DNA of 64,000 nucleotides from Rhizobiaceae bacterium (GTDB taxonomy: Bacteria > Pseudomonadota > Alphaproteobacteria > Rhizobiales > Rhizobiaceae). The stretch is taken from NCBI GenBank assembly GCA_017644105.1, contig JAEPMD010000002.1:119966-183965 (forward strand). Direction: 5' to 3'. The stretch's first letter is position 1. The number at the start of each line of letters is the position of its first letter. The notes below the pieces were generated by a model. It did not search any database. It saw nothing but the letters and a program-made list of their open reading frames with translations, and was not told the DNA's origin. Below, piece after piece: positions 8,143 to 62,860 of this stretch. Made by a program: the position numbers and the translations under genes.

Positions 8143-8178
8143 CCTATTCAAATTTCAATGTTTTAGGAAAACGCTGGC

Positions 8179-8580: not shown

Positions 8581-8616
8581 GTCATATACTCCTTAAATTC
8601 TAAACGACCAGCAGGC

Positions 8617-8817: not shown

Positions 8818-8881
8818 TTCGTCATCTTTCTTTTTGAGAACACACCGAAAATACGCAGCGTGAACCATATTGTTAAAACAT

Positions 8882-8917: not shown

Positions 8918-9042
8918 ATAGGGGTCCTATAGGCACATTCTGAGCAGATTGCAAGAAAAATGCTGCCTAAGAGGGATATTTTGTGCCGATGAAACCATCA
9001 GCACAGATAATCAATATCTCAGCTTAGAACCAAAAGCTAATT

Positions 9043-16287: not shown

Positions 16288-16308
16288 AGATTGATCCTTC
16301 CTTGATCG

Positions 16309-17885: not shown

Positions 17886-18658
17886 TATAAGAACGCCTTT
17901 CCAATTACTGGAGTTGAAGGTTCGGCCATATCGCGAGGCTCCATAGGGTCAGCGTCGTAAGCTGCTTTGCCGGCACAAATCGCATCGGCAAATGCTTTGG
18001 CCATCAAAGGCGGGTCGCCGGCTTTGGCAACAGCTGTGTTTAAAAGAATCGCGTCATAGCCAAGTTCCATTGCGTGAGCGGCTTGAGACGGAAGACCAAT
18101 ACCTGCATCAACGACAAGAGGCACATCGGGGAAATGCGCGCGCAACATGCGAAGGCCATGTTCATTGTTCAAGCCAAGCCCTGAACCAATGGGCGCCCCC
18201 CAAGGCATAAGAACCTCACAGCCCACTTCGAGCAATCGTTCAGCGACTACCATGTCTTCTGTTGTATACGGGAAGACCTGAAAACCTTCTTCGCTTAAAA
18301 TACGCGCGCCTTCCACGAGGCCATAAACATCGGGCTGCAGCGTATCCGTATGCCCGATAATCTCGAGTTTGATCCATGGTGTGCCAAAAACCTCGCGGGC
18401 CATATGCGCCGTGGTCACAGCTTCTTTAACCGTATAACATCCGGCCGTATTGGGCAGAACCGGCACATTGAGATCTTTGATCAATTGCCAAAATTCTTGC
18501 CCCGCGCGATCCGCACCGCTCTCGCGACGTAAGGACACCGTTGCTACACCCGCGCCTGACATTTTAAACGCATCTGCCAGGATGGAAGGTGAGGGATATT
18601 GCGCTGTTCCCAGCATCAATGGGTTTTTAAGCTCTGTGTCATAAAAGAGTTTGCTCAT
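17885..18658 (-). CDS. thiG: Thiazole synthase
   Basis: 257 residues, ThiG family. Seen: [27 protein letters not shown], the Schiff-base Lys region [24 protein letters not shown] and [18 protein letters not shown]. It condenses DXP, dehydroglycine and ThiS thiocarboxylate into the thiazole phosphate carboxylate. The glycine imine is supplied aerobically by ThiO from the same operon. Coupled to thiE and four bases after thiS. Confidence 0.96.
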
Positions 18659-18662
18659 TCGA

Positions 18663-18860
18663 TTATCCGCCCTGCATTGGCGCTAAAATTTCAAGACGGT
18701 CGCCATCGTTTAATACGATGGTTGCGCGCAAGGTTTCAGGCACAAATTCTTCATTGAGGGCGGTGGCAATTTTCGCATCCTGATAGCCAAGTTCAACAAG
18801 CGCGTCGATCAGTGATGCGGCCTTGATGTCAACTTTCTCACCATTAAGCACAATGGTCAT
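18663..18860 (-). CDS. thiS: Sulfur carrier protein ThiS
   Basis: 65 residues from the ATG at 18860, which matches the family start ([11 protein letters not shown]). Ubiquitin-like fold ending in the essential Gly-Gly (APMQGG). Its C terminus is adenylated by ThiF and converted to a thiocarboxylate that donates sulfur to ThiG. It overlaps the end of thiO by about 17 bases, indicating coupling. Confidence 0.93.
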
Positions 18861-19863
18861 GATGTACCTCATTCTTCGTGTTTGGCATGTCACCGTCTGA
18901 AAATTCAGGGCGTGTGCCATCAAATAGATAATTTGCAACTTGTTGCGCGACAGATGGCGCTAACAAATAGCCATGGCGGTAAAGCCCATTGGCATAAATT
19001 GTGTTTCCCTCATAACGAATGCGCGGCAAGTTATCGTTAAATGCGGGACGCGCGTCGACGCCGATTTCTAAAATTTCAGCCTCGCCAAAACTTGGGTGAA
19101 GCGCATAGGCAGCTGTCAGCATTTCCAGCATCGATCGCGCGGTAATGCGGCTGCGTTCTCCGGCTTCAATCATCGTTGCGCCGAGCATATAGATGCCGTC
19201 ACCACGCGGGACAATGTAAAGCGGAATTCTGGGGTGCAACAATCGGATCGGGCGTTTTAAATTAAGATCGGGACAATGCAATATCAGCATTTCGCCTTTA
19301 ACGCCCCTCAGATCTGTTAACTTATCTTGCGCTGCCAACCCTCGACAATCGATGATGGTGGAATGAGCATCCGCTTCGCCCGAGGTTTGGATCTCAATAT
19401 TGTTGTGCTTCAATTGAGATACCAATGCATCCAATGCCTGTCTTGGCGCAAGATGAGCTTCAGATGGGAAATAAAGCGCTTTGCGATAGCGTCCTTCAAG
19501 ATCTGGTTCTAATTCAGTGATTTTATCGGCATCAATGTTTTCAAAATTTGATGTGCGGCGGCCAAAGCGGGCAAGTTCTTTAATATCACGGCCCAGCGCA
19601 ATCACCATTGAACCATTATAGGTGATATCCGCGCCGTTTTTCTCCCACCAAGCAATTGCGTCCTGCCCTAAGCGAACGACAGGTTCTTCCGCGCTTTCAC
19701 CCTCGCAAAATGGTGCGAGCATGCCGCCGGCCCACCAGGAGCAACCATGTGGCCCAGGCGCACCATTGGGATCAATAATGGTGACTTTGCCACCGCGCAC
19801 TGAAATTTCAGTCGCGATGCTCAATCCCAAAACACCTGCACCTTTTATGGTAACATCAATCAT
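18844..19863 (-). CDS. thiO: Glycine oxidase ThiO
   Basis: 339 residues from ATG 19863 (another ATG directly precedes it at 19866). The DAO-family FAD fold is shown by IKGAGVLGLSIATEIS at the N terminus, the GCSWWAGGMLAPFCEGE loop and the C-terminal YANGLYRHGYLLAPSVA. It oxidises glycine to the imine used by ThiG, replacing the radical SAM enzyme ThiH of anaerobic pathways. It overlaps thiD by eight bases. Confidence 0.92.
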   Translation of the reverse strand: MIDVTIKGAGVLGLSIATEISVRGGKVTIIDPNGAPGPHGCSWWAGGMLAPFCEGESAEEPVVRLGQDAIAWWEKNGADITYNGSMVIALGRDIKELARFGRRTSNFENIDADKITELEPDLEGRYRKALYFPSEAHLAPRQALDALVSQLKHNNIEIQTSGEADAHSTIIDCRGLAAQDKLTDLRGVKGEMLILHCPDLNLKRPIRLLHPRIPLYIVPRGDGIYMLGATMIEAGERSRITARSMLEMLTAAYALHPSFGEAEILEIGVDARPAFNDNLPRIRYEGNTIYANGLYRHGYLLAPSVAQQVANYLFDGTRPEFSDGDMPNTKNEVHHDHCA

Positions 19864-31022: not shown

Positions 31023-32261
31023 ATGCTGTTTGGCGCAATTGGAGATGATTTTACCGGTTCTTCCGATCTTGGTCTAATGCTGGCTGATGGTGGCATGCGC
31101 ACAGTACAATATGTTGGCACGCCAAGTGAGCCTGCCGATGCTGATGTCGATGCAGGTATTGTGGCTCTGAAAACGCGTTCGGTTCCTGTGAAGGAAGCCA
31201 TTGAGAAGTCGCTCGAAGCATATCAGTGGTTAAAAGCGCAAGGCTGTCAGCAGTTCATGTTCAAATATTGCTCAACATTTGACAGCACGGCCGATGGTAA
31301 CATCGGTCAGGTGATTGATGCACTCGTCGACGAGATTGGAACAGACAAACCCATTGTCGTATGTCCGGTATTCCCTGGCGCTGGACGATCCATTTATCAA
31401 GGACACTTATTTGTAAATGATACATTACTGTCTGAATCAGGTATGCAAAACCACCCACTCACGCCGATGACGGATCCAGATATTCGCCGCGTATTGGCAC
31501 CACAAACGGTCCGTAAAGTTGGGCATTTACCGCTTGGCGATATTTTAAAAGGCAATGCACACACAAAATTGCTAACCGAGGCAAATGAAGGCCGTCAGCT
31601 TGTTGTATGTGATGCCGTAAGCGAAGATAATTTATATGACATTGCAAAAGCTGCTGCGAACTTCCCATTAATTACGGGCGGGTCAGGCATTGCGCTTGGC
31701 ATTCCAGCAAACTTCGGCAAAACAGCCGCTAACGCAGCAAACTGGGCAAAAAGCAACGCGCGTGTTCTTTGCCTTTCAGGATCATGCTCAATCGCCACAC
31801 GTGGCCAGATAAAAGAACATGAAAATGTTGGCGGTTCACTTTTAAAGCTAGACGCTGATGAAGTTATTTCAGGTCACATGGATGCACAAAAGGCGTTGAG
31901 CTGGGCGAAAGAACAAACAACATTGCCACTTATTTATTCTTCAGACGATCCTGAGCAGGTGAAAGGTGTTCAAGATAAATATGGTTTGGAAGTTGCCGCA
32001 TCTGCGTTTGAAAATCTTTTCAGCGAGATCGCGAATAAAGCATCCGCCTATGGATTTGGCGCAATCATCTCCGCCGGCGGTGAAACATCTGGCGCTGTCG
32101 TTGAAGCGTTAAATGCCGATGCGCTCGAAATTGGCCCGATGATTGATCCCGGTGTTCCGGCAATTAAAGTGTCCGGCCAAGATTTGGTTCTTGCTCTCAA
32201 ATCAGGAAATTTTGGCGCACCTGACTTTTTCGAAAAAGCTGCTAGAGTTCTTTCAAACTAG
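31023..32261 (+). CDS. otnK: 3-oxo-tetronate kinase (four-carbon acid sugar kinase, OtnK)
   Basis: 412 residues, DUF1537/SBD_N-NBD_C family. N-terminal substrate domain: GAIGDDFTGSSDLGLML, FKYCSTFDSTADGNIG and VCPVFPGAGRSIYQGHLFVN; C-terminal nucleotide domain: CLSGSCSIATRGQI and ISAGGETSGAVVEAL. It phosphorylates 3-oxo-tetronates (from threonate, erythronate or related acids) at C4. The divergent otnC supplies the next step. A dehydrogenase (LtnD type) and isomerase (OtnI) are not in this window. Followed closely by a small kinase gene. Confidence 0.92.
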   Translation: MLFGAIGDDFTGSSDLGLMLADGGMRTVQYVGTPSEPADADVDAGIVALKTRSVPVKEAIEKSLEAYQWLKAQGCQQFMFKYCSTFDSTADGNIGQVIDALVDEIGTDKPIVVCPVFPGAGRSIYQGHLFVNDTLLSESGMQNHPLTPMTDPDIRRVLAPQTVRKVGHLPLGDILKGNAHTKLLTEANEGRQLVVCDAVSEDNLYDIAKAAANFPLITGGSGIALGIPANFGKTAANAANWAKSNARVLCLSGSCSIATRGQIKEHENVGGSLLKLDADEVISGHMDAQKALSWAKEQTTLPLIYSSDDPEQVKGVQDKYGLEVAASAFENLFSEIANKASAYGFGAIISAGGETSGAVVEALNADALEIGPMIDPGVPAIKVSGQDLVLALKSGNFGAPDFFEKAARVLSN

Positions 32262-32281
32262 TTTGTTTGAAAGAGAAAAAA

Positions 32282-32923
32282 TTGCATACAACAACATCTG
32301 AACTTGAAGTGCTGATTAAGGCAATTCAAGACTTGCCGTCCGATGGTCGAAAGATCATCGCGGTGGCTGGCGCGCCTGCATCTGGTAAATCAACAATTTC
32401 CGATGCCATCTGTGATCATTTGAACGACATCGAACCCGACTGCGCTAAGATATTGCCGATGGATGGGTATCATTATGACGATACATTGCTTAAAGCGCGT
32501 GGTATTCATAGCTTAAAAGGCGCCCCGCACACCTTCGATGTTTTAGGGTTTTCTCACACACTTAAACGCCTTGCGGCAAGGGATGAGGACGAGGTAGTGA
32601 CACCCGTTTTTGATCGGTCAATTGAGATCGCGCGCGCCGGCGCTAATCCGATTTCTAAAGATGTCGAATATATCATTGTGGAAGGCAATTATGTTCTGGT
32701 CGATCAAAAACCTTGGTCGGAGCTAAAACCCTATTTTGATCTATCCGTTTTTGTAAGTGTGCCAGTCCCTGTATTAGAACAAAGACTGCGCCAGCGATGG
32801 GTCGACCATGGTTTGGATGAAGTGGGGATCGCTCGCAAATTAAAAGAGGTCGATTTGCCCAATGGTGAATTTATTCGCGCCAATTCATCTTTGCCTGACA
32901 TCACATTTGAAATGAAAAATTAG
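32282..32923 (+). CDS. Small P-loop kinase, uridine/pantothenate kinase-like (FrcK/YggC type)
   Basis: 213 residues from TTG 32282, preferred because AAAGAGA lies upstream; an in-frame TTG at 32267 has no ribosome site and there is no ATG. Walker A is AVAGAPASGKSTISDAI; the substrate region includes LPMDGYHYDD and FDVLGF, and the lid RLRQRWVDHGL. This is the nucleoside-kinase-like family seen with sugar transport genes (FrcK beside fructose/ribose ABC genes). It probably phosphorylates a small sugar or polyol. It lies 20 bases after otnK and before glpK, so may share a transcript; substrate unknown. Confidence 0.8.
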   Translation: MHTTTSELEVLIKAIQDLPSDGRKIIAVAGAPASGKSTISDAICDHLNDIEPDCAKILPMDGYHYDDTLLKARGIHSLKGAPHTFDVLGFSHTLKRLAARDEDEVVTPVFDRSIEIARAGANPISKDVEYIIVEGNYVLVDQKPWSELKPYFDLSVFVSVPVPVLEQRLRQRWVDHGLDEVGIARKLKEVDLPNGEFIRANSSLPDITFEMKN

Positions 32924-32967
32924 AACAAGATAAGGCGCAAATTATTGCCGTTTGGTTCTTGTTCTAA
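32920..32967 (+). repeat. 11-bp inverted repeat (long hairpin) between the small kinase and glpK
   Basis: TTAGAACAAGA (32920-32930) and TCTTGTTCTAA (32957-32967) are perfect complements, with an inner GGC/GCC pairing. The left arm includes the stop codon of the kinase gene. There is no T run after it, so it is not a classical terminator; it may protect the upstream mRNA or serve as an operator for glpK. Confidence 0.55.
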
Positions 32968-33015
32968 AGAATTAGTAGTGATAATTCTGTGGCAAAAATT
33001 TTCTAGGGAGCATTC

Positions 33016-34515
33016 ATGTCGAGTTTTATTCTATCCATTGACCAGGGAACAACATCCACTAGGTCATTAATCTTTGATGAGAACTATAATGTAGTTTCGT
33101 CAGATCAAATGGAATTTACTCAGCATTTCCCTTCATCTGGGCTTGTTGAGCATGCGCCAGAAGAAATCTGGCAAACCGTTTTGACAACGTCTAAAAACGC
33201 CATTGCCAAAGCAGGTATCGAGCCAAGTTCCATCGCCGGGATTGGCATTACCAACCAACGCGAAACTGTTGTTGTTTGGGACAAGCAAACAGGCGAACCC
33301 GTCCACAAGGCGATTGTTTGGCAAGATCGTCGAACATCTGAATTTTGTGCAGGCTTGAAAGCCGATGGTTTAGAAGAGAAGGTGACCGCAAAAACCGGTC
33401 TCCTGCTGGATCCTTATTTCTCTGGCTCAAAGATCCGATGGATCTTGGATAATGTTGAAGGTACCCGCGCCCGCGCTGAAAAAGGCGAGCTGATCTTTGG
33501 AACGATCGACACCTATTTGCTGTGGCATTTAACGGGTGGCGCGTCACATAAAACCGATGCAACAAACGCCTGTCGCACATTGCTTTATAACATTCATGAT
33601 GGTGCGTGGGATGATGAACTCTTGCGAATCTTTGGCGTTCCAAAAGCTATGTTGCCGGAAGTTGAAGATACCGCTGCAGATTTTGGCATGGCAGATCCGT
33701 CACTGCTTGGCGCGAGCATTCCGGTGCTTGGCATTGCTGGTGACCAGCATGCCGCTACGCTCGGTCAGGCCTGCTTTAAGCCTGGCATGGTCAAATCCAC
33801 TTATGGAACGGGCTGCTTTATGATGCTCAATACGGGCGAGGTTGCCGTGCCATCTAAAAACCGCATGCTGACAACGGTCGCCTATCAGCTCAATGGCAAA
33901 ACAACCTATGCGCTTGAGGGCTCGATCTTTATCGCGGGTGCGGCGGTTCAATGGTTGCGCGATGGCATTAAGATCATTGACAATGCCGCACAAACTGGCG
34001 CTTTTGCAGCTCAAGCTGATGACGGTCAAGATGTCATATTAGTGCCAGCATTTGCCGGACTTGGTGCACCTTATTGGCAGGCGGATGTCCGCGGTGCCAT
34101 GTTTGGGTTAACTCGAAATACAGGTCCAAATGAAATCGCTAAAGCCGCGCTTGAAGCCGCATGTTACCAGACGCGCGATTTGATTGAAGCGATGCAAGAT
34201 GATTGGGGTAAAGCGCTTGATGATGTCACGCTGCGCGTTGATGGCGGCATGGTCGCAAGTGATTGGACTATGCAATTCTTGTCAGACATTTTAAATGCCC
34301 CAATTGACCGTCCAACCGTGCTGGAAACAACAGCCTTGGGGGCTGCATGGCTCGCGGGCATGCGCAGTGGCACTTGGCCTGATATGGATGAGTTTGCAAA
34401 TTCGTGGAAATTGCAGCAGCGTTTTGAAACCAAAATGCCAAGCGATCTGCGCGAACAAAAATACAGCAGCTGGAAATCAGCCGTCTCGTGTTTGATCGCA
34501 CGTGAAGGCAGCTAA
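33016..34515 (+). CDS. glpK: Glycerol kinase
   Basis: 499 residues, full-length FGGY kinase. Seen: [41 protein letters not shown], the signature-type [32 protein letters not shown] and [14 protein letters not shown]. It converts glycerol to glycerol 3-phosphate. Start follows CTAGGGAG. No glpF, glpD or glpR is nearby; it lies in a three-carbon/four-carbon polyol region after otnK and the small kinase. Confidence 0.96.
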
Positions 34516-51577: not shown

Positions 51578-52363
51578 TTATCCAAGTCCGATAACACCGC
51601 CATCAACGGCAATCGATTGACGGGTCAGCATGCGCGAAGCGTCTGAGGCCAAAAACAAGACGATCCCGACCATGTCTTCAGAGACGAGTTTTTCCGGGAT
51701 AGCCTGTGTTTCAAGATGTTTAGAAACCTTCTCTTCTGTCGCCCATAGATCGAGCTGACGCTGGGTAAATACCCATCCTGGAAGAACAGAATTTACGCGG
51801 ATATTGTCCTTGCCAAGCGTATCCGCCAATGCGCGCGTGAGGCCAGCAATCCCCGCTTTAGCGGTGATGTAACCAGGATATTGATCACCGCCCAAATGAT
51901 GTGCAATCGATGAGAAATTGATAATCGATCCGCCACCTAACTTAGCCATGTCTTGAGCTACGTGTTTTGCCGTGAAGAAATGCGGGCGCAAATTGACGTT
52001 AATGAGATGGTCGAAATCATCGATTTCGGTTTCTTCGAGTTTGTGGCGATTGTCAGAAGCTGCATTATTGACCAAGACTTGGATTGGACCATGGGTCTCT
52101 TTTGCTTGATCAAGCGCGGCTTCAAGTGCCGGAATATCTAAAATATCGCACTGAATGAACAAAGGTCGTTCGTGGTATTTGGCTTCCATCTCATCACAAA
52201 ATTCACTTGCGTCACTACGCTGAATAAATGTGACATGTGCGCCTTGCATTAAAAAACTTTCCGTCAGCAACGCACCGATGCCGGAACCGCCACCAGTGAT
52301 AAAAACAGATTTGCCTTTCAGATCAGGAAAAATCGCGCTTGGCATTCGTGATGATTGAGACAT
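51578..52363 (-). CDS. SDR family NAD(P)-dependent oxidoreductase (possible sugar dehydrogenase)
   Basis: 261 residues, classical SDR. Cofactor loop GGGSGIG (24-30), NNA at 99-101, catalytic Ser151/152, Tyr165 and Lys169 (YITAK), and the closing AVDGGVIGLG. The residue after the second strand (QRSDAS) suggests NADP or mixed use. Similar SDRs include xylose, arabinose and galactose 1-dehydrogenases. Last gene of an operon headed by the ROK regulator and divergent from a xylose-type ABC transporter, so an aldose dehydrogenase role is plausible. Start overlaps the CRTAC1 stop (TAATG). Confidence 0.85.
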   Translation of the reverse strand: MSQSSRMPSAIFPDLKGKSVFITGGGSGIGALLTESFLMQGAHVTFIQRSDASEFCDEMEAKYHERPLFIQCDILDIPALEAALDQAKETHGPIQVLVNNAASDNRHKLEETEIDDFDHLINVNLRPHFFTAKHVAQDMAKLGGGSIINFSSIAHHLGGDQYPGYITAKAGIAGLTRALADTLGKDNIRVNSVLPGWVFTQRQLDLWATEEKVSKHLETQAIPEKLVSEDMVGIVLFLASDASRMLTRQSIAVDGGVIGLG

Positions 52364-54000
52364 TAATCCTCCGCAGGGTACCAGTAATTTGCACTTGGGC
52401 TGCCACGTTGAATGATAACATGATTATTGGCAAATACTTTATACGGATGGCTCCAATCTCCATTTGGCCATTGCACACGGATCGTTGCGCGCTCGGCAAC
52501 GCCTAATCCAAAGTGATTAAATCCGAGTTGGCCTGACGCGTGACCGCCGCCAATTTGCACGGTTTTATTCTGCGTTAAATTGCCGGTTTTGACCGAGATT
52601 TTCGCGCCAATCGCGTCCTTATTGATATCGCCATTATCAAGTTCAATCTTGATCCAATTGCCCATTGGGCGATGACCCCAACTGGTTTTTGCGCCTTCAT
52701 TGATGAAGAGGTTCACATTGGTTTTTCGATTGACAACGAGCATATCGAGCATGCCATCCGCGTTGAAATCTTCAATCACAGCGCCGCGCCCGGCAGAATG
52801 AAGCGCAATGCCAGCCTCATCACCCTTTTCGGTGAATTTGTTTTCTATGCCGCCAAGCAACATATTATCCGGATCATAACTTGCAAAATCCGTCATCGCT
52901 TCGACATTGCCTTTTGCAATGTATAAATCTTTATGCGTGTCGTTGTTGAAATCAACAAATTGCGAATGCCATCCAGTTGAAGGCTTCAAGTCGTCACCCG
53001 TATATGGCCGATGCGCGGTTGCACCGCTTTCATAGGCAATATCGCGATAGATCGGGCTTTCTTCATCACCTTCTTCATCCAACGATTGGATTTTCGTATC
53101 GCCCATAGACGTGAGTGCATATTCTGGAAAGCCATCACCGTTGAGATCGGTTTCTGCGATGCCCATGCCCCAGATTTGTAATGTTTCCCAACCATCATTT
53201 TGCGTATAAGCCCGTGGCGTCTCACCAGGTGTTATCTGCCAAAGCTGCTCTTGCCCGCCTCGATAATATTGACGGTCATTGGTAATGCGAAGATCTGGTT
53301 TGCCAGATTTGTTCCAGTCCGTGAACAGCATGGATAAGGAACAATAGCCAGGCTCAAGCGCAAGGGGTTCGGCATAAGTACCGTCTGCATTGGGTCTGAG
53401 CAGCATATTGGGCGAACATGTGCCCCAAGGTGTTCCGGGCGCATCGCGATCAACATAATTGCCGATTGCCATGGTGGGTAAAGCATTATCGCCTTCCCAA
53501 ATGGCGGCAAAACCGGTGCTCCATTCACGACCGCCTTTCATAGCAAACTTTTTATTTGCTTTGGTAAAGCTGCAGTCCGGGCCACCTTTTAAGATCTGAT
53601 TGGCGCCCAAACGCAACAAGACGAGATCCGTATACTCATCATTATCGATATTGATCGGATAGGCGCCAAGCACTTTTAAATTGCTTCGGCCAATATCGAG
53701 TGCTTTTTCGATGAAAGATAAGTTGCCGCCCGCAGATGATGCATTGACGAAAAGTTTTGCTTCGCCTTTGCCGCCGGATAAGAAAACATCAGGCATGCGG
53801 TCGCCATTGCAGTCAAAACTTGCCGCGCCGCCGCCGACAAAATATTCCCATGGTCCAGAATAGGTGTGTGCAATACCAGCTTGTTCGGATTGCTCAATCA
53901 TATTGGGCACATCAAATGGAAATTCACTTGAATGCGCGGTTGATAGTCCGATTGAAAAAACCAAGGCGATGGCAGAACTTATTTTGAGGTTATTCTTCAT
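52363..54000 (-). CDS. CRTAC1 family FG-GAP/VCBS-repeat protein with ASPIC/UnbV domain
   Basis: 545 residues with a signal peptide (1-25, STAHSS). Several VCBS/FG-GAP blades with calcium-type loops (DCNGDRMPDV, DNDEYTDLV, DLNGDGFPEY, DFNNDTHKDLY, DFNADGMLDM) form a beta-propeller, followed by an ASPIC/UnbV domain (about 455-525, DAIGAKISVKTG, GFNHFGLGVAE, VQWPNG). These proteins are exported and bind calcium or ligands; no enzyme activity is established. It lies between the di-heme protein and the SDR in a coupled operon, suggesting a shared periplasmic task. Confidence 0.9.
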   Translation of the reverse strand: MKNNLKISSAIALVFSIGLSTAHSSEFPFDVPNMIEQSEQAGIAHTYSGPWEYFVGGGAASFDCNGDRMPDVFLSGGKGEAKLFVNASSAGGNLSFIEKALDIGRSNLKVLGAYPINIDNDEYTDLVLLRLGANQILKGGPDCSFTKANKKFAMKGGREWSTGFAAIWEGDNALPTMAIGNYVDRDAPGTPWGTCSPNMLLRPNADGTYAEPLALEPGYCSLSMLFTDWNKSGKPDLRITNDRQYYRGGQEQLWQITPGETPRAYTQNDGWETLQIWGMGIAETDLNGDGFPEYALTSMGDTKIQSLDEEGDEESPIYRDIAYESGATAHRPYTGDDLKPSTGWHSQFVDFNNDTHKDLYIAKGNVEAMTDFASYDPDNMLLGGIENKFTEKGDEAGIALHSAGRGAVIEDFNADGMLDMLVVNRKTNVNLFINEGAKTSWGHRPMGNWIKIELDNGDINKDAIGAKISVKTGNLTQNKTVQIGGGHASGQLGFNHFGLGVAERATIRVQWPNGDWSHPYKVFANNHVIIQRGSPSANYWYPAED

Positions 54001-54008
54001 GCCAGCAC

Positions 54009-55421
54009 CTATTTAATTTCAAGCGTGCGCAAAAACGCAATCAGTTGTTGTTGAAGCACTTCATCCAGCGCGAGATAGGCATCTCTTGATGCGCGCGCAT
54101 CACCACCATGGGCGCTAATCACCTCGGTGAGGTCATACATATCATTACGGTGGCCATAGGGAGCGGTTGACGCAACACCCCAAAGTTCAGCGGTGATAAA
54201 GATATTGCGGTCCACAAAACGTTGCGACATCAATTCATTGCCAAAGGCATCGACTTCACTATCGGTCATTGTGTGGCGTTTAAGATCACCAAATAAAGGC
54301 ACCATCACTTGGCCATCATCATTGCGGGGAAGGGCTTCTGCCCATTCGAGCATGGCAAGATCATAAGTGGCCGGTGCTTCCACCTGATAGGTTTGCAAAG
54401 TGCCAGCCACATCAAACAAACCAGGATCATCAAACTGAAGAGAGTTCAAAGGTAACGCTGGCATATGGCATTGCGCGCAGCCAATTTGATCGAATACTTG
54501 TTTGCCGTTTTCCGCTGCCGCTTGCCATTCTGCACTATCCGGTTTGGCAATAATGGGTGGACGCAAAGTCGCTTGCCATGCAACAAGTGCGGAGATGTCG
54601 GCAGAACTTAGCTCGGCTGACATGCCATCCTCATCAAAATCACTTTCACCTGTCCATCTTGCACCAAAACGTTCGGTCGCCTGCATGCCATGGTGATGGT
54701 TTGATGCGTTGACCGTAAATTGCCGTAAGGATGTCATCACACCTTTTTGGCTGAACGGGCGCACCACAAGGTCTGTGTCAATGCCATCAATTTCACCGAG
54801 CTGCAAAACACCATCTTCTTGCGCTGTGATGAACCCATATGAAATGCCTTTAGAGGTGAGTTCAACGCGTGTTGGCTTTTGATCCTCGCGCGCTGATTTC
54901 AATGCATTGCGACGAATGTCATGCAAGTCAGTGGTGATCTCGCGCGCAAGAAGCTCAATCAGCCCAGCACCAAATAAATGATTGGTGCCGCGTTCATTTG
55001 AAAATTGCGGATTGATCGAATCAAAATCCGCATTGGTAAAACCTTCTGAGACGAACACATTGGTGACAAAATCACCTGCGCCACCCAACAGTGGTTCATT
55101 ATGACACGCACCGCAAGATGCTGCATCTGGTCCAGAGGTTCTAGCAAAGGCAGTTTTAGACAAACGTCGCGCTTTGGTCGGCAAGATCGCAGCGGTCGCC
55201 ATTGGACGACCAGCGCCTTCGGACTTTTTAAATTTAGCTTCGAATAATTCTTCGCCCGCTTGCACAAGCACATCTAATTCTTCTCGGCCCAAAAATCCGA
55301 TCGGCATTTGTGTGATCCGGCCAATCGCATCCGTTTTTTCGGCCCAGGGCGGTGTGTTATCTGCAAAGCTAGGAGCTGTGCTTAGACACACTAAGCCCAC
55401 CAAAATAAGTGAAGTACGCAT
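54009..55421 (-). CDS. Di-heme oxidoreductase (DHOR/DUF1111 family) cytochrome
   Basis: 470 residues with a signal peptide (1-20). Two c-type heme sites, CGACHNEP at 103-107 and CAQCHMPAL at 315-319, as in the DUF1111/DHOR family (sometimes called thiol oxidoreductase). It is a periplasmic cytochrome related to MauG-like/di-heme peroxidases. The start overlaps the ROK stop (ATGA), and the CRTAC1 gene follows eight bases later. With an SDR and a periplasmic propeller it may accept electrons from a substrate oxidised outside the cytoplasm, but no substrate is shown. Confidence 0.9.
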   Translation of the reverse strand: MRTSLILVGLVCLSTAPSFADNTPPWAEKTDAIGRITQMPIGFLGREELDVLVQAGEELFEAKFKKSEGAGRPMATAAILPTKARRLSKTAFARTSGPDAASCGACHNEPLLGGAGDFVTNVFVSEGFTNADFDSINPQFSNERGTNHLFGAGLIELLAREITTDLHDIRRNALKSAREDQKPTRVELTSKGISYGFITAQEDGVLQLGEIDGIDTDLVVRPFSQKGVMTSLRQFTVNASNHHHGMQATERFGARWTGESDFDEDGMSAELSSADISALVAWQATLRPPIIAKPDSAEWQAAAENGKQVFDQIGCAQCHMPALPLNSLQFDDPGLFDVAGTLQTYQVEAPATYDLAMLEWAEALPRNDDGQVMVPLFGDLKRHTMTDSEVDAFGNELMSQRFVDRNIFITAELWGVASTAPYGHRNDMYDLTEVISAHGGDARASRDAYLALDEVLQQQLIAFLRTLEIK

Positions 55422-56650
55422 CAGTTAAATTTCCACTTTGTACCGTTTTGTTCGGATATAATATTGCTATCAAGGTCACTCAGACATGACTGTACATTGC
55501 CATTGAAAATGAGATGGCCCTCATCGGTGTGAAAGCTGACATCTGGCATTTTATTGCGTCTGACCTGCAAGGTATTTTGTATGCCGTCTAAGATCGACGT
55601 TTGCATGAGATCGTAGAACAATGTGCCATGACCGGTAATCGCGATCGGCATCGGTCCTAATAATGTGAGCAATCTACCGAGACCTATGCCAAGTGCTTCT
55701 CCAGCACGGCGGAAAGCATATTCAGATTGGTGATCACCATTGCGGGCGCGAACTGCGATATTCTCAATTTCTTTGAGCGGAATAAATTTTGCCGGCACCA
55801 CATCGTCATCCACTTCAAATGCGGTGCGCAATATTCCGTAAAAGCCAGCGATAGATTCAATGCATCCATGTGCACCACAACGACATAAAGGCCCGTTGGG
55901 GTCATGCATCATATGGCCAAATGGTGGTGCAAACGAACTGATCTTCCCATTGGCTTCTTCGGTGGCAATGCCAAGACCAATGGAATGGCTGAGTGAAAGC
56001 GTTGCTAATTTGCGGTTGCTGAACCCGCCGAGTTTTGCAGCGCGCTGTTCAGCAATTGACTGCGCAGCAAATTGCGTATCATTTGTCAGTCTGATTTGTG
56101 CGGGTAAGATCGGTCTGAGCAGATCTTCAAAATTCATCGTATTATCTTCAAAGACAGGCGACCATAATAGTTCTGGTTTGCCCGACGCCACCAATCCTTT
56201 GGTGGTAATAGACACCGTTAAAATTTGTTCTGGCTGCAATTCGCTCCGTTCAATGAGGCGCTGGATATCGTTCTTAAGACGGTTTGAAAATGTATCGATA
56301 TCCGTTTCCGCAGGAGGTCGTTTTTCCTCAAAGCGATCTTTCAAAGTGCCCGCATAATCAACCAGCGAATATTGCACCATCTCTGAGGTGATCCGCACGA
56401 TTGCGACAAAAGCACAATTTGGATTTTGGCGAAATTTAACACGTGGTCGTCCGCGGCCCGCAGAGGGTGCTTGTTCCTCACGTAACAAGATGCCTTCTTT
56501 TTCAAGCTCAGTGGTAATCGTTGAAACGGTTGCTGAGCTTAAACTTGTCCATTGCGACAATTCCGTATGGGAGACCGAGCCAAGCCGACGCAGGGCCGAT
56601 AAAATCAAGCCTCGATTCTGCTTCCTTAAATTCTCAGTACTTGCCTTCAT
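55421..56650 (-). CDS. ROK family transcriptional regulator
   Basis: 409 residues from ATG 56650 (another ATG lies two codons upstream). N-terminal winged helix (about 5-65, SLSSATVSTITTELEKEG), then the ROK domain with the zinc motif CRCGAHGCIE (about 265-274). ROK repressors of the XylR/NagC type respond to sugars. It heads a coupled operon with DHOR, CRTAC1 and SDR genes and is divergent from xylFHG-like genes, with two matching operator-like boxes in the gap. It probably controls both units. Confidence 0.9.
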   Translation of the reverse strand: MKASTENLRKQNRGLILSALRRLGSVSHTELSQWTSLSSATVSTITTELEKEGILLREEQAPSAGRGRPRVKFRQNPNCAFVAIVRITSEMVQYSLVDYAGTLKDRFEEKRPPAETDIDTFSNRLKNDIQRLIERSELQPEQILTVSITTKGLVASGKPELLWSPVFEDNTMNFEDLLRPILPAQIRLTNDTQFAAQSIAEQRAAKLGGFSNRKLATLSLSHSIGLGIATEEANGKISSFAPPFGHMMHDPNGPLCRCGAHGCIESIAGFYGILRTAFEVDDDVVPAKFIPLKEIENIAVRARNGDHQSEYAFRRAGEALGIGLGRLLTLLGPMPIAITGHGTLFYDLMQTSILDGIQNTLQVRRNKMPDVSFHTDEGHLIFNGNVQSCLSDLDSNIISEQNGTKWKFN

Positions 56651-56715
56651 TAGCATCGAAAGAATAACCCATTATAATCTAAAAGCTATTTAGAGCCAAA
56701 AAGAGAATTTGTCAA

Positions 56716-56733
56716 TTTTCTCGTGACTCGAAA
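56716..56733 (+). promoter_or_regulatory. Candidate ROK operator, copy 1
   Basis: TTTTCTCG-TGAC-TCGAAA, which recurs in inverted form at 56774-56791 with a different 4-base centre. It lies about 66 bases before the ROK start. Paired copies in the divergent promoter gap are typical of ROK regulators such as NagC and XylR. Confidence 0.55.
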
Positions 56734-56773
56734 TAAATATGTTGACTCGCAGAAAAAAATTTGGCAAACATTT

Positions 56774-56791
56774 TTTCGACTGTCGAGAAAA
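56774..56791 (-). promoter_or_regulatory. Candidate ROK operator, copy 2 (inverted)
   Basis: On the minus strand TTTTCTCG-ACAG-TCGAAA, identical to copy 1 in all 14 outer positions. Centres are 58 bases apart, so looping or cooperative binding is possible. It lies 87 bases before the xylF-like start, fitting repression of the sugar transporter. Confidence 0.55.
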
Positions 56792-56877
56792 TTAATTTTC
56801 GATCGGTTCTAACGACGAAATGAGGGGCTTAGTATTTCGCGTCTCATTATCCATTTTATCATTTGGGAGGAATTCAA

Positions 56878-57915
56878 ATGAACAAATTCGCAACTATGTT
56901 GCTTGCTGGTGCTGCGCTATCTGTTGTCGCTTCAGGTGTCGCCGTCGCTAAAGACAAGGTTATTGGTGTTTCTTGGTCAAACTTCCAGGAAGAGCGCTGG
57001 AAAACTGACGAAGCTGCAATGAAAGCTGCTATTGAAGCAAATGGTGACAGATACATCTCAGCTGATGCGCAAGCTTCTGCTTCAAAACAATTGACAGATG
57101 TTGAAAGCTTGATCGCTCAAGGCGCAAATGCACTTATCATTCTTGCACAAGATTCAGGCGCAATTGGCCCAGCTGTTGATAGCGCTGCAAACGAAGGTAT
57201 TCCGGTTGTTGGTTATGACCGTCTTATCGAAGATGCACGTGCATTCTACCTAACATTCGACAATGTTGAAGTTGGCCGCATGCAGGCGCGCGCTGTTTTG
57301 GCTGCAAAGCCTGAAGGTCGCTACGCTTTCATCAAAGGTTCTTCAGCTGATCCAAACGCTGACTTCCTATTCGGTGGTCAAATGGAAGTTCTGAAAGAAG
57401 CCATGGATGCAGGCAAAATCACCAATGTCGGTGAAGCTTACACAGATGGTTGGAAGCCAGACAATGCTCAGAAAAACATGGAGCAAATCCTAACAGCTAA
57501 CGACAATGGCGTTGATGCTGTTGTGGCATCAAACGATGGTACAGCTGGTGGTGTTGTTGCGGCTCTCGAAGCTCAAGGTCTTGCAGGTTCTGTGCCAGTA
57601 TCTGGTCAGGATGGTGACCATGCTGCGCTAAACCGTGTTGCTCGCGGTACACAAACAGTATCTGTTTGGAAAGACGCCCGTGAGCTTGGTAAAGCAGCTG
57701 GTAACATCGCTGCAATGCTTGCTGACGGTAAAGCAATGGGCGACATTCCAGGTGCAGTCAGCTGGTCAGGTGGCGCGAATGGCGTTGAAATGACAGCTCA
57801 GTTCCTAGCGCCAATCCCAGTAACAAAAGACAACCTAAATGTTGTTATCGACGCTGGCTGGATCGCGAAAGACAAAGCTTGTGAAGGTGCAATGGCTGGC
57901 GTTTCTGGCTGTTAA
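56878..57915 (+). CDS. xylF: Xylose-type sugar ABC transporter substrate-binding protein (XylF-like)
   Basis: 345 residues from ATG 56878 behind GGGAGGAATTCAA. Signal peptide 1-24. The pentose/hexose binding pattern of the XylF family is clear: IGVSWSNFQEERWKTDE, VVGYDRLIEDA, FIKGSSADPNADF, ASNDGTAGGVVAAL and VSGQDGDHAALNR. It binds xylose or a similar aldose in the periplasm and delivers it to XylHG. Exact sugar unproven. A strong stem-loop follows it, consistent with higher expression than the membrane genes. Confidence 0.9.
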   Translation: MNKFATMLLAGAALSVVASGVAVAKDKVIGVSWSNFQEERWKTDEAAMKAAIEANGDRYISADAQASASKQLTDVESLIAQGANALIILAQDSGAIGPAVDSAANEGIPVVGYDRLIEDARAFYLTFDNVEVGRMQARAVLAAKPEGRYAFIKGSSADPNADFLFGGQMEVLKEAMDAGKITNVGEAYTDGWKPDNAQKNMEQILTANDNGVDAVVASNDGTAGGVVAALEAQGLAGSVPVSGQDGDHAALNRVARGTQTVSVWKDARELGKAAGNIAAMLADGKAMGDIPGAVSWSGGANGVEMTAQFLAPIPVTKDNLNVVIDAGWIAKDKACEGAMAGVSGC

Positions 57916-57965: not shown

Positions 57966-58042
57966 TTCAATCTAAACTTTCCGCAACTTGGTTCGAATAA
58001 ATCGAGCCTGAGTTGTTGGCATGTTTTTAATTGGAGTCATCG

Positions 58043-59365
58043 GTGAGCAACAATAATAATATGCATCGCGCCAATAAAGTTGAAAACGAAAGCGGATTTA
58101 CAAGGTTCCTTCGTGCAACAGAATTAGACGTGCGTTTGCTTGGCATGATCGCGGCACTCATATTCATTTGGGTGGGCTTTCATCTTTACGGACTATTGGC
58201 AAACGGTTTTGGCGCGTTTCTAACGCCACGAAATCTGTGGAACCTTTCTGTCCAAACATCGTCAATTGGCGTTATGGCATGTGGTATGGTGTTGGTCATC
58301 GTCACCCGGCATATCGATTTGTCGGTTGGTTCAATTCTCGGATTCTCAGCCATGTGTATGGCGATCCTACAAGTGTGGATCCTGCCTGAAATTTTAGGTC
58401 TAGGGCATCCGCTTATCTGGATCATTACTGCCGTTGCAGGTATTTTAATTGGTACCCTCATCGGTGCTTTGCATGGATATTTAATTGCCTATCTCGCAAT
58501 TCCAGCCTTCATCGTCACATTGGGTGGTCTATTGGTCTGGCGTGGTGCTGCATGGTTGCTTGCAAGCGGTGAAACTATCTCTCCTGTTGATCGCACATTT
58601 GCCAAACTTGGCGGCGGACCATTTGGTGCGATCGGTTCAACAGGCAGTTGGATTATCGCACTGCTTGCCTGTGCACTCGTTTTGTTTAGTTTCTGGCAAG
58701 CACGCAAAAAGCGTAAGCGGTTTAATTTCCCACTGCGTCCAATGTGGGCTGAAACTTTCTTAGGCGCCTTAGCATGTTTTGCGATTTTAGGTTTCGCCTG
58801 GATTGTAAACGCCTATCCATGGCCAAAGGGTATCGTGCGTCGCTATGCAGCAGAAAACAACATCACAACTCCAGTTGAAGAAATCTTCATCTCTCATGGA
58901 TTTGCGATCCCTGTTTTGATCATGATCGCGGTAGGCGTAGGTATGACATTTTTGATGAGCCGCACGCGTTTTGGCCGCTACGTATTTGCCATTGGTGGCA
59001 ATCCAGAAGCTGCAGAACTTGCCGGTATTAAAACCAGATGGATCACCGTTAAGATCTTTGCACTTATGGGCGGTCTTTGCGGACTATCAGCCATCATTGC
59101 CAGTGCGCGTCTCAACTCGGCGACCAATGCACTTGGTACATTAGATGAGCTTTACGTCATCGCGGCAGCCGTTATTGGCGGCACATCATTCGCTGGCGGT
59201 ATCGGCACCATTTATGGGGCGATCTTAGGTGCCGTTGTTATGCAATCACTTCAAACAGGTATGATTTTGATCGGATTTGATACAGCCATTCAGCAAATGG
59301 TTGTGGGTGGCGTACTCGTCTTCGCCGTCTGGATTGACACAATCTACCGTAGACGTGCGAAATAA
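58043..59365 (+). CDS. xylH: Xylose-type sugar ABC transporter permease (XylH-like)
   Basis: 440 residues from GTG 58043, which has GGAG six bases upstream; an in-frame TTG at 58031 has none. Around ten membrane helices, XylH/RbsC family: [50 protein letters not shown] and [19 protein letters not shown]. The central loop (about 195-300) is longer than in RbsC, as usual for XylH. It forms the sugar channel with XylG. Confidence 0.92.
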
Positions 59366-59379: not shown

Positions 59380-60180
59380 ATGACTGATAAAAATTCAAAC
59401 ACATCCTCAAAAACGCCACTTGTTGAGATGAAAAATATTTCAATCGGGTTTGGAGGTATCAAAGCGGTTGATCATGCTGATGTTGATCTATTCCCGGGCG
59501 AGGTCGTTGCGATCCTTGGTCACAACGGTGCGGGTAAATCAACACTGATCAAAATTCTGTCTGGCGCATACAAGCGCGATGAAGGTCAGATTTTTGTAAA
59601 TGGCGAAGAGGCTGTCATCAACAATCCGCGTGATGCGAAAAAATATGGCATCGAGACCATCTACCAGACATTGGCGGTTGCCGATAATGTGGATGCAGCG
59701 GCGAACCTTTATCTGGGGCGTGAAATTCTCACCAATTTTGGGACCTTAGATGATGCAGCGATGGAAGCTGAGGCACGGAAAGTGATGGGTCGATTGAACC
59801 CGAACTTCCAACGCTTTAAAGAGCCTGTCAGCAAATTATCTGGTGGTCAGCGTCAATCGGTGGCGATTGCGAGAGCAATCTTGTTCAATGCCAAAATCCT
59901 GATCATGGATGAGCCGACAGCTGCGTTGGGTCCGCAAGAAACCGAGCAAGTTGGGCAATTGATCCAACAGCTGAAGAAGGATGGCATTGGCATCTTCCTC
60001 ATCAGCCATGACATTCATGACGTGTTCGATCTCGCCGATCGTGTCGCTGTTATGAAAAACGGTCAGGTTGTTGGTTATGCAAGAACCGAAGATGTGACCA
60101 AAGATGAAGTGCTTGGCATGATCATTTTGGGCAAATGCCCTGAAGGTGCAATCCCCGGTCCAGGGGCTATGCAGGAATAG
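59380..60180 (+). CDS. xylG: Sugar ABC transporter ATPase, single-domain (XylG-like)
   Basis: 266 residues with one ATPase domain: Walker [15 protein letters not shown]-loop [13 protein letters not shown], signature [14 protein letters not shown], Walker [12 protein letters not shown] and switch His in [10 protein letters not shown]. coli XylG has two such domains in about 513 residues; this half-size form, which must dimerise, is common for the CUT2 systems of alphaproteobacteria. Starts 14 bases after xylH behind AAGAGGAGTTGGGATA. Confidence 0.92.
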
Positions 60181-60346: not shown

Positions 60347-62860
60347 ATGGAAAGTAAAGCACGTGTCGTGGTTATTGGCGGGGGAGTTGTTGGGGTCTCA
60401 ACACTTTATCACTTGGCAAAAAAAGGTTGGTCCGATTGTGTTCTGATTGAACGAAAGGAACTGACCTCCGGTTCCACATGGCATGCTGCTGGATTGCTTC
60501 CGCTGTTTAACATGAGTTATTCCGTTGGCCAGATCCACAAATATTCCGTGAAATTTTATCGTGAGTTGGAAGAAGAAACAGGCGTAAATGTCGGTTTCTC
60601 GAATGTCAGTAATATTCGCCTGGCTAAAACCAAAGATCGCTGGGATGAATATATGTATTATGCAGGCGTTGCGGAAACGCTTGGTATTCCGGTTAACATT
60701 CTAACGCCTGAACAAGTCAAGGAAATCTGGCCTTTATGTGAGACGGAAGGTCTGCTAGGTGCGATCCAACATCCTGACGATGGTTATATTCAGCCAGCAG
60801 ATTTAACCCAGGCCTTGGCTAAAGGCGCACGCGATTTGGGTGCGACGATCCAAAGATACACAACTGTCACCGATATTGAAAAACTGGAAAACGGTCAGTT
60901 CGTGGTTAAAACCGACAAAGGCGATATCACCTGTGATCATGTTGTGTCGTGTACTGGTAACTTTGCGCGCAAAACAGGAGCTATGGTTGGCCTCGATGTG
61001 CCAGTGATCCCAGTTGAGCACCAATATATCGTGACAGAACCGCATCCGGATATTGTCGCACGCAAAGAACAAGGCTTGCCAGAAATGGGTGTTCTTCGCG
61101 AGTCAGATAGCTCTTGGTACATGCGCGAAGAAAATGGTGGTTTGCTGCTTGGACCGTATGAAAAAGGCGCACCTTGTTGTTATGTCGATGGACCAAGCGA
61201 CGAAAGCGAATACGAACTTTTCCAGGAAGATATCGATCGCTTGATGCCGCATATTGAAACTGCGATTGAACGCGTGCCAGCTTTCGGCGAAGTCGGCATC
61301 AAAAAAGTTTATAATGGCGCGATTGCATACACGCCTGATGGTTCGCCCATTATTGGCCCAGCGCCAGGTTTGAAAAACTTCTGGCTCAATGAAGGTCATT
61401 CGTTTGGAATTACGGCTGCGGGCGGTGCAGGCTGGCAATTGGCAGAATGGATTGTCGATGGCGAACCAACCATTGATATGATGGGTGTCGATCCACGCCG
61501 CTTTGGTCCTTATGCGACAGAAGGTTATTTGCGTGAGAAAAACGAAGAAGCCTATGCCAATGTGTTCACCACGCACTATCCGGATGAAGAGCGCGCCGCA
61601 GCGCGTCCTTTGAAAACCACACCAATTTATGATCGCTTGAAAGACCGCGGTGCTGTGTTCGGATCTGTTTATGGTTGGGAACGCGCCAACTGGTTTGCAC
61701 CTGAAGGCTATGAAGTGCCGAAAGAAGAATTGGCTCTCGGCGCAGATGTTTTAACCGATCACAATTATGCGCCGGCTACCGATGATGGCCGTATCGTTGA
61801 AAGATGGTCATTCCGCCGTTCAAACTATTTCGAGCATGTCGGTAATGAAGTTAAAAATGTGAACGAAAATGTCGGCCTTTTGGACATGTCCGCATTTGCC
61901 AAGATCGAAGTCAGCGGCAAAGGTGCGCGTGACTGGCTGAACTATATTTTTGCCAACGCCGTTCCCAAAACACGCGGGCGTGTGGCTTTATGTCATTTGC
62001 TGACAAAATATGGAGGTGTACGTTCAGAATTCACTGTTTTTGAGTTTTCTCCAGACCATTTTTATTTGGTCTCCGCTGGCGCTTATGAGGCGCATGACCA
62101 TGATGTATTAAGGAGGCTACTTCCTGCAGACGGTTCCGTTCAGTTGGGTCCAATCACTGAAAAATATGGTGTGCTGGTTCTAGCTGGTCCAAAGTCGCGC
62201 GAAGTATTGACCAAACTCACTCGCACGAGCTTGTCCAATGATGATTTCAAATGGCTCACGGGTAAGAAAATCTCTGTGGGTCGCGCCACAGCCTTTGCAC
62301 TGCGCGTGAATTTTGTCGGTGAATTGGGTTGGGAATTGCACCATCCTATCGAGCAGCAAAATGCAATCTTCGATGCGGTTATGGAAGCCGGTGAAGAATT
62401 CGGCATCAAGCCATTTGGTATCAGAGCTATGACGGCTATGGCGGTTGAAAAAAGCTACCGCTTGATCCCGCGCGAACTCTCAATTGAGTATAATGCGTTT
62501 GAATCTGGTCTCGATCGATTTGTGAAATTGAGCAAGGAAGATTTCCTTGGCAAAGATGCGCTTGTGAAAGCCAAAGAAGATGGATTGAACTGGAATTTTG
62601 TTACAATGGAAGTTCATGATGTCACAGATGCTGATGCCCGCGGCAATGAAGCGATCTATAAAGATGGCGAGTTGGTTGGTCGTGCAACACATGGTGCTTA
62701 TGGATATAGAATTGGCAAATCTCTAGCACTCGCAATGGTCAAACCAGATGTGTCTACCATCGGAACCCAGCTTGAGATTAAGATCCTTGGTAAAATTCAT
62801 AAAGCAACAATTGTTGAAGAAAGCCCATTTGATCCAGAAAATGTCGCCTTACGCGCTTAG
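60347..62860 (+). CDS. Dimethylglycine/sarcosine dehydrogenase-like FAD-GcvT protein
   Basis: 837 residues. N-terminal DAO-type FAD domain: VVIGGGVVGVSTLYHLAKKG (GxGxxG at 11-16) and SGSTWHAAGL, whose His46 matches the residue that binds FAD covalently in mammalian DMGDH. A FAO_M linker (about 370-430) and a folate-binding GcvT domain plus GCV_T_C (about 440-830) follow. The family oxidatively demethylates dimethylglycine or sarcosine and hands the methylene to tetrahydrofolate. Stand-alone gene with its own putative operator; several paralogs with different methylamine substrates exist, so the substrate is open. Confidence 0.88.
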   Translation: MESKARVVVIGGGVVGVSTLYHLAKKGWSDCVLIERKELTSGSTWHAAGLLPLFNMSYSVGQIHKYSVKFYRELEEETGVNVGFSNVSNIRLAKTKDRWDEYMYYAGVAETLGIPVNILTPEQVKEIWPLCETEGLLGAIQHPDDGYIQPADLTQALAKGARDLGATIQRYTTVTDIEKLENGQFVVKTDKGDITCDHVVSCTGNFARKTGAMVGLDVPVIPVEHQYIVTEPHPDIVARKEQGLPEMGVLRESDSSWYMREENGGLLLGPYEKGAPCCYVDGPSDESEYELFQEDIDRLMPHIETAIERVPAFGEVGIKKVYNGAIAYTPDGSPIIGPAPGLKNFWLNEGHSFGITAAGGAGWQLAEWIVDGEPTIDMMGVDPRRFGPYATEGYLREKNEEAYANVFTTHYPDEERAAARPLKTTPIYDRLKDRGAVFGSVYGWERANWFAPEGYEVPKEELALGADVLTDHNYAPATDDGRIVERWSFRRSNYFEHVGNEVKNVNENVGLLDMSAFAKIEVSGKGARDWLNYIFANAVPKTRGRVALCHLLTKYGGVRSEFTVFEFSPDHFYLVSAGAYEAHDHDVLRRLLPADGSVQLGPITEKYGVLVLAGPKSREVLTKLTRTSLSNDDFKWLTGKKISVGRATAFALRVNFVGELGWELHHPIEQQNAIFDAVMEAGEEFGIKPFGIRAMTAMAVEKSYRLIPRELSIEYNAFESGLDRFVKLSKEDFLGKDALVKAKEDGLNWNFVTMEVHDVTDADARGNEAIYKDGELVGRATHGAYGYRIGKSLALAMVKPDVSTIGTQLEIKILGKIHKATIVEESPFDPENVALRA

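Follow-up and report, generated by a model that had tools for sequence, protein, structure and literature searches.

The locus described here is a run of minus-strand genes in a 64,000-nucleotide stretch of DNA (the window) from a Rhizobiaceae bacterium. Its first gene (55421–56656) encodes a ROK-family regulator (Pfam ROK PF00480, 1.2e-21), a XylR-like candidate, whose second ATG at 56650 is the end point given in a first-pass annotation of this DNA. It is followed by a gene for a DHOR-like di-haem cytochrome (54009–55421; Pfam DHOR PF06537, 6e-7), predicted by eye to be exported from its hydrophobic N-terminal stretch, in which the haem-binding motifs CGACH (residues 103–107) and CAQCH (residues 315–319) are encoded at 55101–55115 and 54465–54479 of the minus strand. 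The third gene (52363–54000) encodes a CRTAC1-family protein, predicted to be exported and to consist of an FG-GAP propeller (FG-GAP_3, 4.4e-17) and a C-terminal UnbV_ASPIC domain (5.7e-10). The last gene, which is lineage-specific, encodes an SDR-family dehydrogenase resembling aldose 1-dehydrogenases (51578–52363; adh_short, 1.9e-44). The ROK and DHOR genes share one base at 55421 (TGATG), the CRTAC1 and SDR genes share one at 52363 (TAATG), and the gap between the DHOR and CRTAC1 genes is 8 bases, which confirms the first-pass description of four genes that overlap or nearly touch. Together the four genes make up a compact operon, and the genes of a D-xylose ABC transporter run divergently from it.

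The transporter genes lie on the plus strand. The binding protein XylF (56863–57915) scores 429.1 bits against the XylF equivalog model TIGR02634, above the cut-off of 389.55, in agreement with the first-pass assignment of a xylose-type transporter. It is followed by a xylH-type sugar permease (58031–59365; Pfam BPD_transp_2, 2.6e-34) and a single-domain sugar ABC ATPase of 266 residues (59380–60180; Pfam ABC_tran). The best NCBIfam matches of the ATPase are the RbsA and XylG models, over their first half only. It has one nucleotide-binding domain, compared with about 500 positions in the XylG model, and the open reading frames (ORFs) of its relatives are similarly short, with a median of 272.

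A DHOR scan of named genomes was followed up for the best 80 of 110 confirmed places, corresponding to 79 loci. Eight distant DHORs (L135–L138 and L140–L143; 42–46% identity) were set aside before counting; the remaining 71 loci carry a close DHOR (at least 54% identity in the best tblastn segment), and the counts use those with enough DNA. CRTAC1 is encoded directly downstream of the close DHOR on the same strand in all 70 assessable loci, and a ROK gene directly upstream in 63 of 68 (the misses being L078, L085, L088, L122, and L127). The presence of xyl genes was scored by tblastn; in some high-GC loci, ORF calling gives antisense frames. A divergent xylF was found at 59 of 63 close-DHOR loci, the misses being L078, L085, L088, and L127, in the last of which xylF, xylH, the ATPase, DHOR, CRTAC1, and aldose epimerase genes all lie on one strand. 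Of the 55 close-DHOR loci for which 8 kb or more of preceding DNA was available, XylA was found in 24, XylB in 23, and either of them in 28; in a profile check, one XylA and one XylB scored above the family cut-off, and two aldose epimerases and a glucokinase were also checked. In 14 Granulosicoccaceae loci and in L074 (Thiotrichaceae), DHOR, CRTAC1, and xylB follow one another on the same strand. Named carriers include Hoeflea, Nitratireductor, Oricola, Chelativorans, Notoacmeibacter, Amylibacter, and Granulosicoccaceae, and the ROK-DHOR-CRTAC1 order divergent from a xylose transporter recurs in alpha- and gammaproteobacteria. The distant DHORs, some of them on short contigs, gave no CRTAC1 match by tblastn, and other DHOR paralogues (L002 and L061–L064) have no adjoining CRTAC1 or xyl match. 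The tie of the DHOR/CRTAC1 pair to xylose is well supported, and the earlier suggestion that the context of DHOR is a real clue is borne out by these counts.

The window's own family was surveyed in 199 genomes, the draws for DHOR, CRTAC1, and xylH being taken as the same genomes since their handles agree. DHOR was found in 51 genomes, CRTAC1 in 85, and the xylH permease (E ≤1e-80) in 144. All but one of the 51 DHOR genomes also carry CRTAC1, and in the exception (G077) DHOR lies at a contig end. The 85 CRTAC1 genomes comprise 50 with DHOR, 27 with a haloperoxidase, six with a CCP/MauG protein, one in which no partner was found (G004), and one with a distant, unclassified match (G114); beyond these six, G117 carries CCP/MauG with a second CRTAC1 copy. 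By tblastn, 26 of the 35 DHOR-less CRTAC1 loci encode an exported-looking protein of about 450 residues directly upstream on the same strand, and seven have a di-haem CCP/MauG gene directly downstream (six convergent, one on the same strand; PF03150, 1e-33). Neither was found beside CRTAC1 in L164, and L184 is cut by a contig end; in its genome (G095), a different contig carries the remainder of CRTAC1, with the 450-residue protein encoded next to it.

The 450-residue partner matches the vanadium-dependent haloperoxidase 4cit over residues 7–433 (E 5.5e-79), and Pfam PAP2 was found in the three members scanned. It keeps the segments K..RP, SGH, and SR..H, which we take to be residues of the vanadate pocket, and homology places it among the vanadium-dependent haloperoxidases. 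Searched back at 1e-60, it occurs in 27 of the 199 genomes, next to CRTAC1 in all 27 and in none of the 51 DHOR genomes (hypergeometric 6e-12 and 2e-15, over genomes that are not independent). As judged by homology, CRTAC1 is the constant part of the locus, and its neighbour belongs to one of three peroxide-using families, namely DHOR, CCP/MauG, and vanadium haloperoxidase. This exchange of DHOR for other peroxide-using enzymes is a better guide to the chemistry than DHOR alone.

Related genes were also seen outside these pairs. In L221 and L164, a partnerless CRTAC1 lies, by eye, near alpha-glucoside-type GH13 and ABC genes. The window genome encodes on other contigs a CCP/MauG homologue 46% identical to the partner form (G000:C88:114537–115769) and a weak haloperoxidase-like match of 32% (G000:C8:1009–1908). 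The one Bacteroidota plasmid copy of an iodoperoxidase gene seen, in Adhaeribacter swui, has no gene annotated as CRTAC1 in the 15 kb displayed.

All three partner versions occur beside xyl genes. Of the 26 haloperoxidase loci in the window's family, 14 gave a xylF or xylH match; that of L177 represents a different transporter at 30–35% identity, which leaves 13. A match was also obtained in five of the seven CCP/MauG loci. In another family of the same order, CRTAC1 was found in 14 of 149 genomes; xylF and xylH are divergent from haloperoxidase-CRTAC1 in L275, L276, L278, and L282, and DHOR-CRTAC1 occurs with xylF in L272–L274. A phylum-wide draw gave CRTAC1 in 14 of 299 genomes. Among these, in L223, from another class, xylB, xylA, xylF, xylH, CRTAC1, and the haloperoxidase gene follow in this order on one strand. 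In a third family, L224 and L226–L230 have ROK-CRTAC1 and xylF in divergent orientation and a convergent CCP/MauG gene immediately after CRTAC1; CCP/MauG was not found behind CRTAC1 in L225. L280 and L281 show xylF-xylH-xylB-xylA followed by CCP/MauG on one strand, and CCP/MauG and CRTAC1 are in swapped places in L279. In Phaeobacter inhibens, xylF with its permease and ATPase is accompanied by ROK-CRTAC1 and a convergent, overlapping pair of aldose epimerase and cytochrome c peroxidase genes.

The pairing of CRTAC1 with haem proteins extends to a single polypeptide. L231, from a genome of another class, encodes one frame of 1089 residues (6038–9307) that contains CCP_MauG (3.2e-25), FG-GAP_3 (3e-45), and UnbV_ASPIC (6e-20) and that was matched in 24 of 197 genomes of its order, the match being partial in 23. 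G639 has two frames in succession on one strand, the first for a two-haem CCP/MauG protein and the second, of 1231 residues, FG-GAP/UnbV-like. In a quick-method CRTAC1 tree (145 rows, with SH-aLRT, the SH-like approximate likelihood ratio test, as the only support; near-copies above 90% and the L231 fusion left out), the three partner classes require two changes in total. Rows L272–L280 were labelled by hand, L277 being assigned to the haloperoxidase class though the gene is on another contig, and partnerless rows were not counted as a class. Such a low number of changes suggests that exchanges were rare and old and that each pairing was then kept.

DHOR and CCP/MauG are distant members of one superfamily; vanadium haloperoxidase is unrelated to them and shares only the use of hydrogen peroxide (H2O2). 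Because this third class has only H2O2 in common with the other two, we place H2O2 at the centre of our preferred, though tentative, reading: the operon would be an exported, H2O2-linked redox arm of the xylose-utilisation locus, with CRTAC1 as its sugar-facing part and the peroxidase as its partner. CRTAC1 and the haem protein would work in the periplasm and would be coupled through H2O2, most likely in that CRTAC1, acting on an aldose, either generates or requires H2O2, which the peroxidase would handle. Xylose, once imported, would itself pass through xylose isomerase and xylulokinase, the ROK protein would act as the local xylose-responsive regulator, and the SDR would be a local add-on of the aldose 1-dehydrogenase type. 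Periplasmic handling of a sugar by the DHOR/CRTAC1 pair, which the first-pass annotation had raised, is possible and comes close to the explanation that we consider best. CRTAC1 might make the peroxide, be oxidised by it, or only travel with a protective enzyme.

Several observations weigh against this reading. The DHOR-CRTAC1 pairs of L078, L085, and L088 have neither ROK nor xyl genes; for 12 of the 26 haloperoxidase loci of the window's family, the retrieved DNA gave no xyl match, L177 has its different transporter, and two of the seven CCP/MauG loci have no xyl match. Within the DNA searched, neither the L231 fusion nor the G639 pair belongs to a xyl locus. In G004, G425, G254, and G202, CRTAC1 is present but no DHOR, CCP/MauG, or haloperoxidase partner was found (DHOR was sought genome-wide in G004 and near CRTAC1 in the others), and in Ruegeria sp. 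TM1040 the 19.5 kb shown include the transporter, ROK, and CRTAC1 but no such peroxidase. No redox cofactor site was recognised in CRTAC1, and in the structure comparison below, the likeness of its model to the sugar enzyme aldos-2-ulose dehydratase is tied with that to LGI1 and little above that to other propellers. More generally, adjacency is no proof of shared chemistry.

The exchange among unrelated peroxidases would suit plain H2O2 removal. The peroxidase might guard the cell against H2O2 from plant or algal tissue during xylan use, with CRTAC1 acting at the cell surface or in adhesion and expressed in response to that same sugar; in Zobellia, growth on fresh algae induces oxidative-stress genes, and vIPO3 is up on Ascophyllum versus alginate (PMC9296495). 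However, each peroxidase class keeps with CRTAC1 throughout its clade, and one is fused to it, which is beyond the needs of a general scavenger, and we consider this explanation unlikely.

The structural data bear on the kind of haem protein involved. DHOR scores 28.7 bits against PF06537, above the gathering cut-off of 22, with only the C-terminal part (residues 377–467) aligned, and C103, C106, H107, C315, C318, and H319 are invariant in 52 sequences. Its structural model (mean predicted local distance difference test score, pLDDT, of 82, with low confidence around haem 1) gives Z scores of 13.8 to the di-haem CCP 2vhd (root-mean-square deviation, RMSD, of 3.6 over 221 residues), 13.7 to MauG 3sjl, and 13.4 to the gamma subunit of hydrazine synthase 5c2v, and DHOR is thereby predicted to have the fold of the di-haem CCP/MauG superfamily. 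In a profile comparison, DHOR and the CCP/MauG partners match over the C-terminal 95 columns only, with 95% probability. The DHOR sequence remains far below the MbnH equivalog cut-off (TIGR04039, 21.6 versus 362.85 bits) and has no match to MauG (TIGR03791) at 0.001; the two CCP/MauG partners scanned are likewise below both maturase cut-offs (117 and 130 versus 362.85; 92 and 93 versus 443.85).

The CRTAC1 protein has both the FG-GAP propeller and UnbV_ASPIC expected of its family. The DSSP assignment of its model (mean pLDDT 86.9) was read as seven four-stranded blades and a C-terminal beta domain. The structure comparison, limited to families listed by VIA, gave Z scores of 36.1 to murine CRTAC1 9etn (RMSD 2.8 over 452 residues), 29.5 to LGI1, 28.4 to aldos-2-ulose dehydratase, and 24–26 to many other propellers; in aldos-2-ulose dehydratase, a Zn site and His belong to the propeller active site. 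Conservation was counted over 164 relatives and the window (120 with DHOR, 26 with haloperoxidase, 14 with CCP/MauG, and four with none), truncated and stop-bearing copies being dropped. Residues at least 90% conserved in all partner classes include W51, Y114, W160, Y182, Y245, W271, W277, M279, M299, W344, H345, M369, R405, H487, H496, W511, and four Cys; W277F and H487D occur in rows included later, from loci that carry DHOR. In propellers, each blade turns its first strand to the central channel, and several of the conserved residues probably lie at the start of such strands, facing this channel.

These residues, W160, W271, W344, H345, M279, M299, and M369 among them, together with the predicted superfamily fold of DHOR, the L231 fusion, and the same-strand pair in G639, would fit a maturation pair, in which a MauG/MbnH-like di-haem protein oxidises a Trp or Tyr of CRTAC1 into a cofactor or metal site and the propeller then binds copper or sugar. 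Vanadium haloperoxidase makes diffusible hypohalite and would be a poor substitute for a specific maturase, and the equivalog scores given above also argue against such a role. W277 was tried as the maturation target, as it seemed to be lost only in partnerless CRTAC1; it is Phe in the DHOR-bearing L272–L274, where it is thus lost although the partner is present, and this candidate was given up. W51 is missing from L221, L222, and L225, which are too few to use. There is a published parallel in CorA/MopE, an oxidised-Trp protein with kynurenine whose gene is co-transcribed with a di-haem peroxidase gene (PMC3912023). Taken with the points on both sides, maturation of CRTAC1 by its partner is possible but rather unlikely.

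The first-pass annotation had proposed a four-gene route in which propeller and cytochrome oxidise a sugar partly in the periplasm and the cytoplasmic SDR continues. The one-base overlap of the SDR and CRTAC1 genes favours it, as does the best NCBIfam match of the SDR, D-xylose 1-dehydrogenase (NF053674), although the score of 257.7 bits is below the equivalog cut-off of 400. A third point comes from L168, where an SDR 50% identical to that of the window lies downstream of DHOR-CRTAC1 in an overlapping run (15764–18982) with genes for a putative sugar kinase, a 2-dehydro-3-deoxy-6-phosphogalactonate aldolase, and an SMP-30-like protein. With profile matches obtained for only the SDR and the aldolase, this run is a candidate oxidative aldose route. 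However, the SDR adjoins CRTAC1 in only two of 59 close-DHOR loci (L065 and L108), both of the window's genus, and no SDR match was found beside CRTAC1 in G012 (L167) of the same genus, where 44 bases separate CRTAC1 from an XylB match that follows on the opposite strand. XylA and XylB are, moreover, encoded elsewhere in the window genome. The neighbourhood survey that the annotation had called for thus upholds the co-occurrence of ROK, DHOR, CRTAC1, and divergent xylF but not that of the SDR; the four genes are not a general unit, and a route ending in the SDR is very unlikely.

Under our preferred reading of an H2O2-linked arm of the xylose locus, both divergent units would be controlled from the gap between ROK and xylF. 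A pattern search found operator-like sites there, TTTTCTCGTGACTCGAAATA at 56716–56735 on the plus strand and TTTTCTCGACAGTCGAAAAA at 56772–56791 on the minus strand, for which 0.02 matches are expected in the window at up to three mismatches. The gap holds two exact matches to TTTTCTCGNNNNTCGAAANA, with no other exact copies in the genome. Gaps between ROK and xylF were compared in the window and in relatives with a ROK protein more than 42% identical to one of two ROK queries (33 gaps, some being copies of one locus). A site at no fewer than 13 of 16 positions, often the palindrome TTTTCTCGACWGTCGAGAAA, occurs in 25 of them, against a mean of 0.09 (counted up to 4) for shuffled sequences. The eight gaps with no operator-like site are all from Granulosicoccaceae and were drawn in by the second ROK query. 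From this sequence pattern, we infer that the ROK protein binds the two sites at 56716–56791. The pattern was also considered as the mark of a wider regulon; 16 matches were found in the genome at up to two mismatches, both exact copies included, versus nine for a reversed-pattern control, which is not clearly above, and the idea was rejected.

The window genome carries xylB-xylA on another contig (L217, G000:C13) and thus has the genes of the ordinary isomerase pathway. This stretch has its own divergent ROK gene, whose product is 33% identical to one ROK query and 31% identical to the window ROK, and it contains no operator-like copy. Other genes of the window were also noted. Behind the xylose transporter, on the same strand, lies a gene for an 837-residue DAO-GCV_T FAD oxidase resembling dimethylglycine/sarcosine oxidases (60347–62860); it is kept in the same-genus L108 and has a 38% relative elsewhere in locus L131, and it is not a general neighbour. 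A row of 3-oxo-tetronate kinase, nucleoside kinase-like, and glycerol kinase genes lies at 31023–34515.

To our knowledge, neither DHOR nor bacterial CRTAC1 proteins have a settled role, and no description of a xylose-linked peroxidase-CRTAC1 module was found in the open-access literature searched. MopE/SACCP and CorA/CorB of methanotrophs are among the nearest comparisons, MbnP/MbnH of methanotrophs being a further system of this kind, and we know of no haloperoxidase exchange in MopE/CorA-type systems. In them, too, an exported partner is encoded beside a di-haem CCP-type protein; yet, in the accessible part of the source, this partner is not described as a CRTAC1 propeller, and the system is copper-repressed rather than sugar-linked (PMC3912023). 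MauG, which acts with pre-methylamine dehydrogenase, belongs to the same di-haem superfamily by predicted fold but is set apart from DHOR by the sequence tests above. Hydrazine-synthase-like clusters of non-anammox bacteria have a CRTAC1-family gene beside CCP-like di-haem genes, to which the match of the DHOR model to 5c2v may be added; they differ in carrying alpha and beta-gamma subunits and, in the part of the paper available, are not described as xylose loci (PMC12758564). Bacterial xylose isomerase loci with a ROK-type regulator share xylFHG, xylAB, and the divergent ROK gene, whereas loci of the window type add the exported peroxidase and CRTAC1 pair.

A possible precedent for sugar-driven H2O2 feeding a haloperoxidase is offered by Arenibacter C-21, whose iodine uptake requires glucose, O2, and Ca2+, with H2O2 able to replace glucose, and for which the proposed machinery is a haloperoxidase with a membrane-bound glucose oxidase (PMC5064120). 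The homologues in that paper, of the Zobellia vanadium iodoperoxidase type, match 4USZ, an entry that shares one distinct PDB sequence with 4cit; on the other hand, the paper names no oxidase gene and makes no mention of CRTAC1 (PMC5064120). In the most far-reaching form, bacterial CRTAC1 proteins would be unrecognised Ca-binding exported sugar oxidases, a peroxidase from any of three families would use their H2O2 or mature their active site, and xylose loci would deploy the module, a proposal that we regard as a long shot.

Collectively, these observations tie DHOR and CRTAC1 to one sugar locus in several families and show that CRTAC1 stays while its partner is exchanged. The question is thereby narrowed from the identity of the cytochrome to the H2O2 chemistry of CRTAC1 and its sugar, and, since the CCP/MauG version occurs beside xylF in Phaeobacter inhibens, it can be tested in a cultured, named organism. 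The module may, in addition, be relevant to the sugar oxidase that has been suggested to drive the uptake of iodine in Arenibacter.

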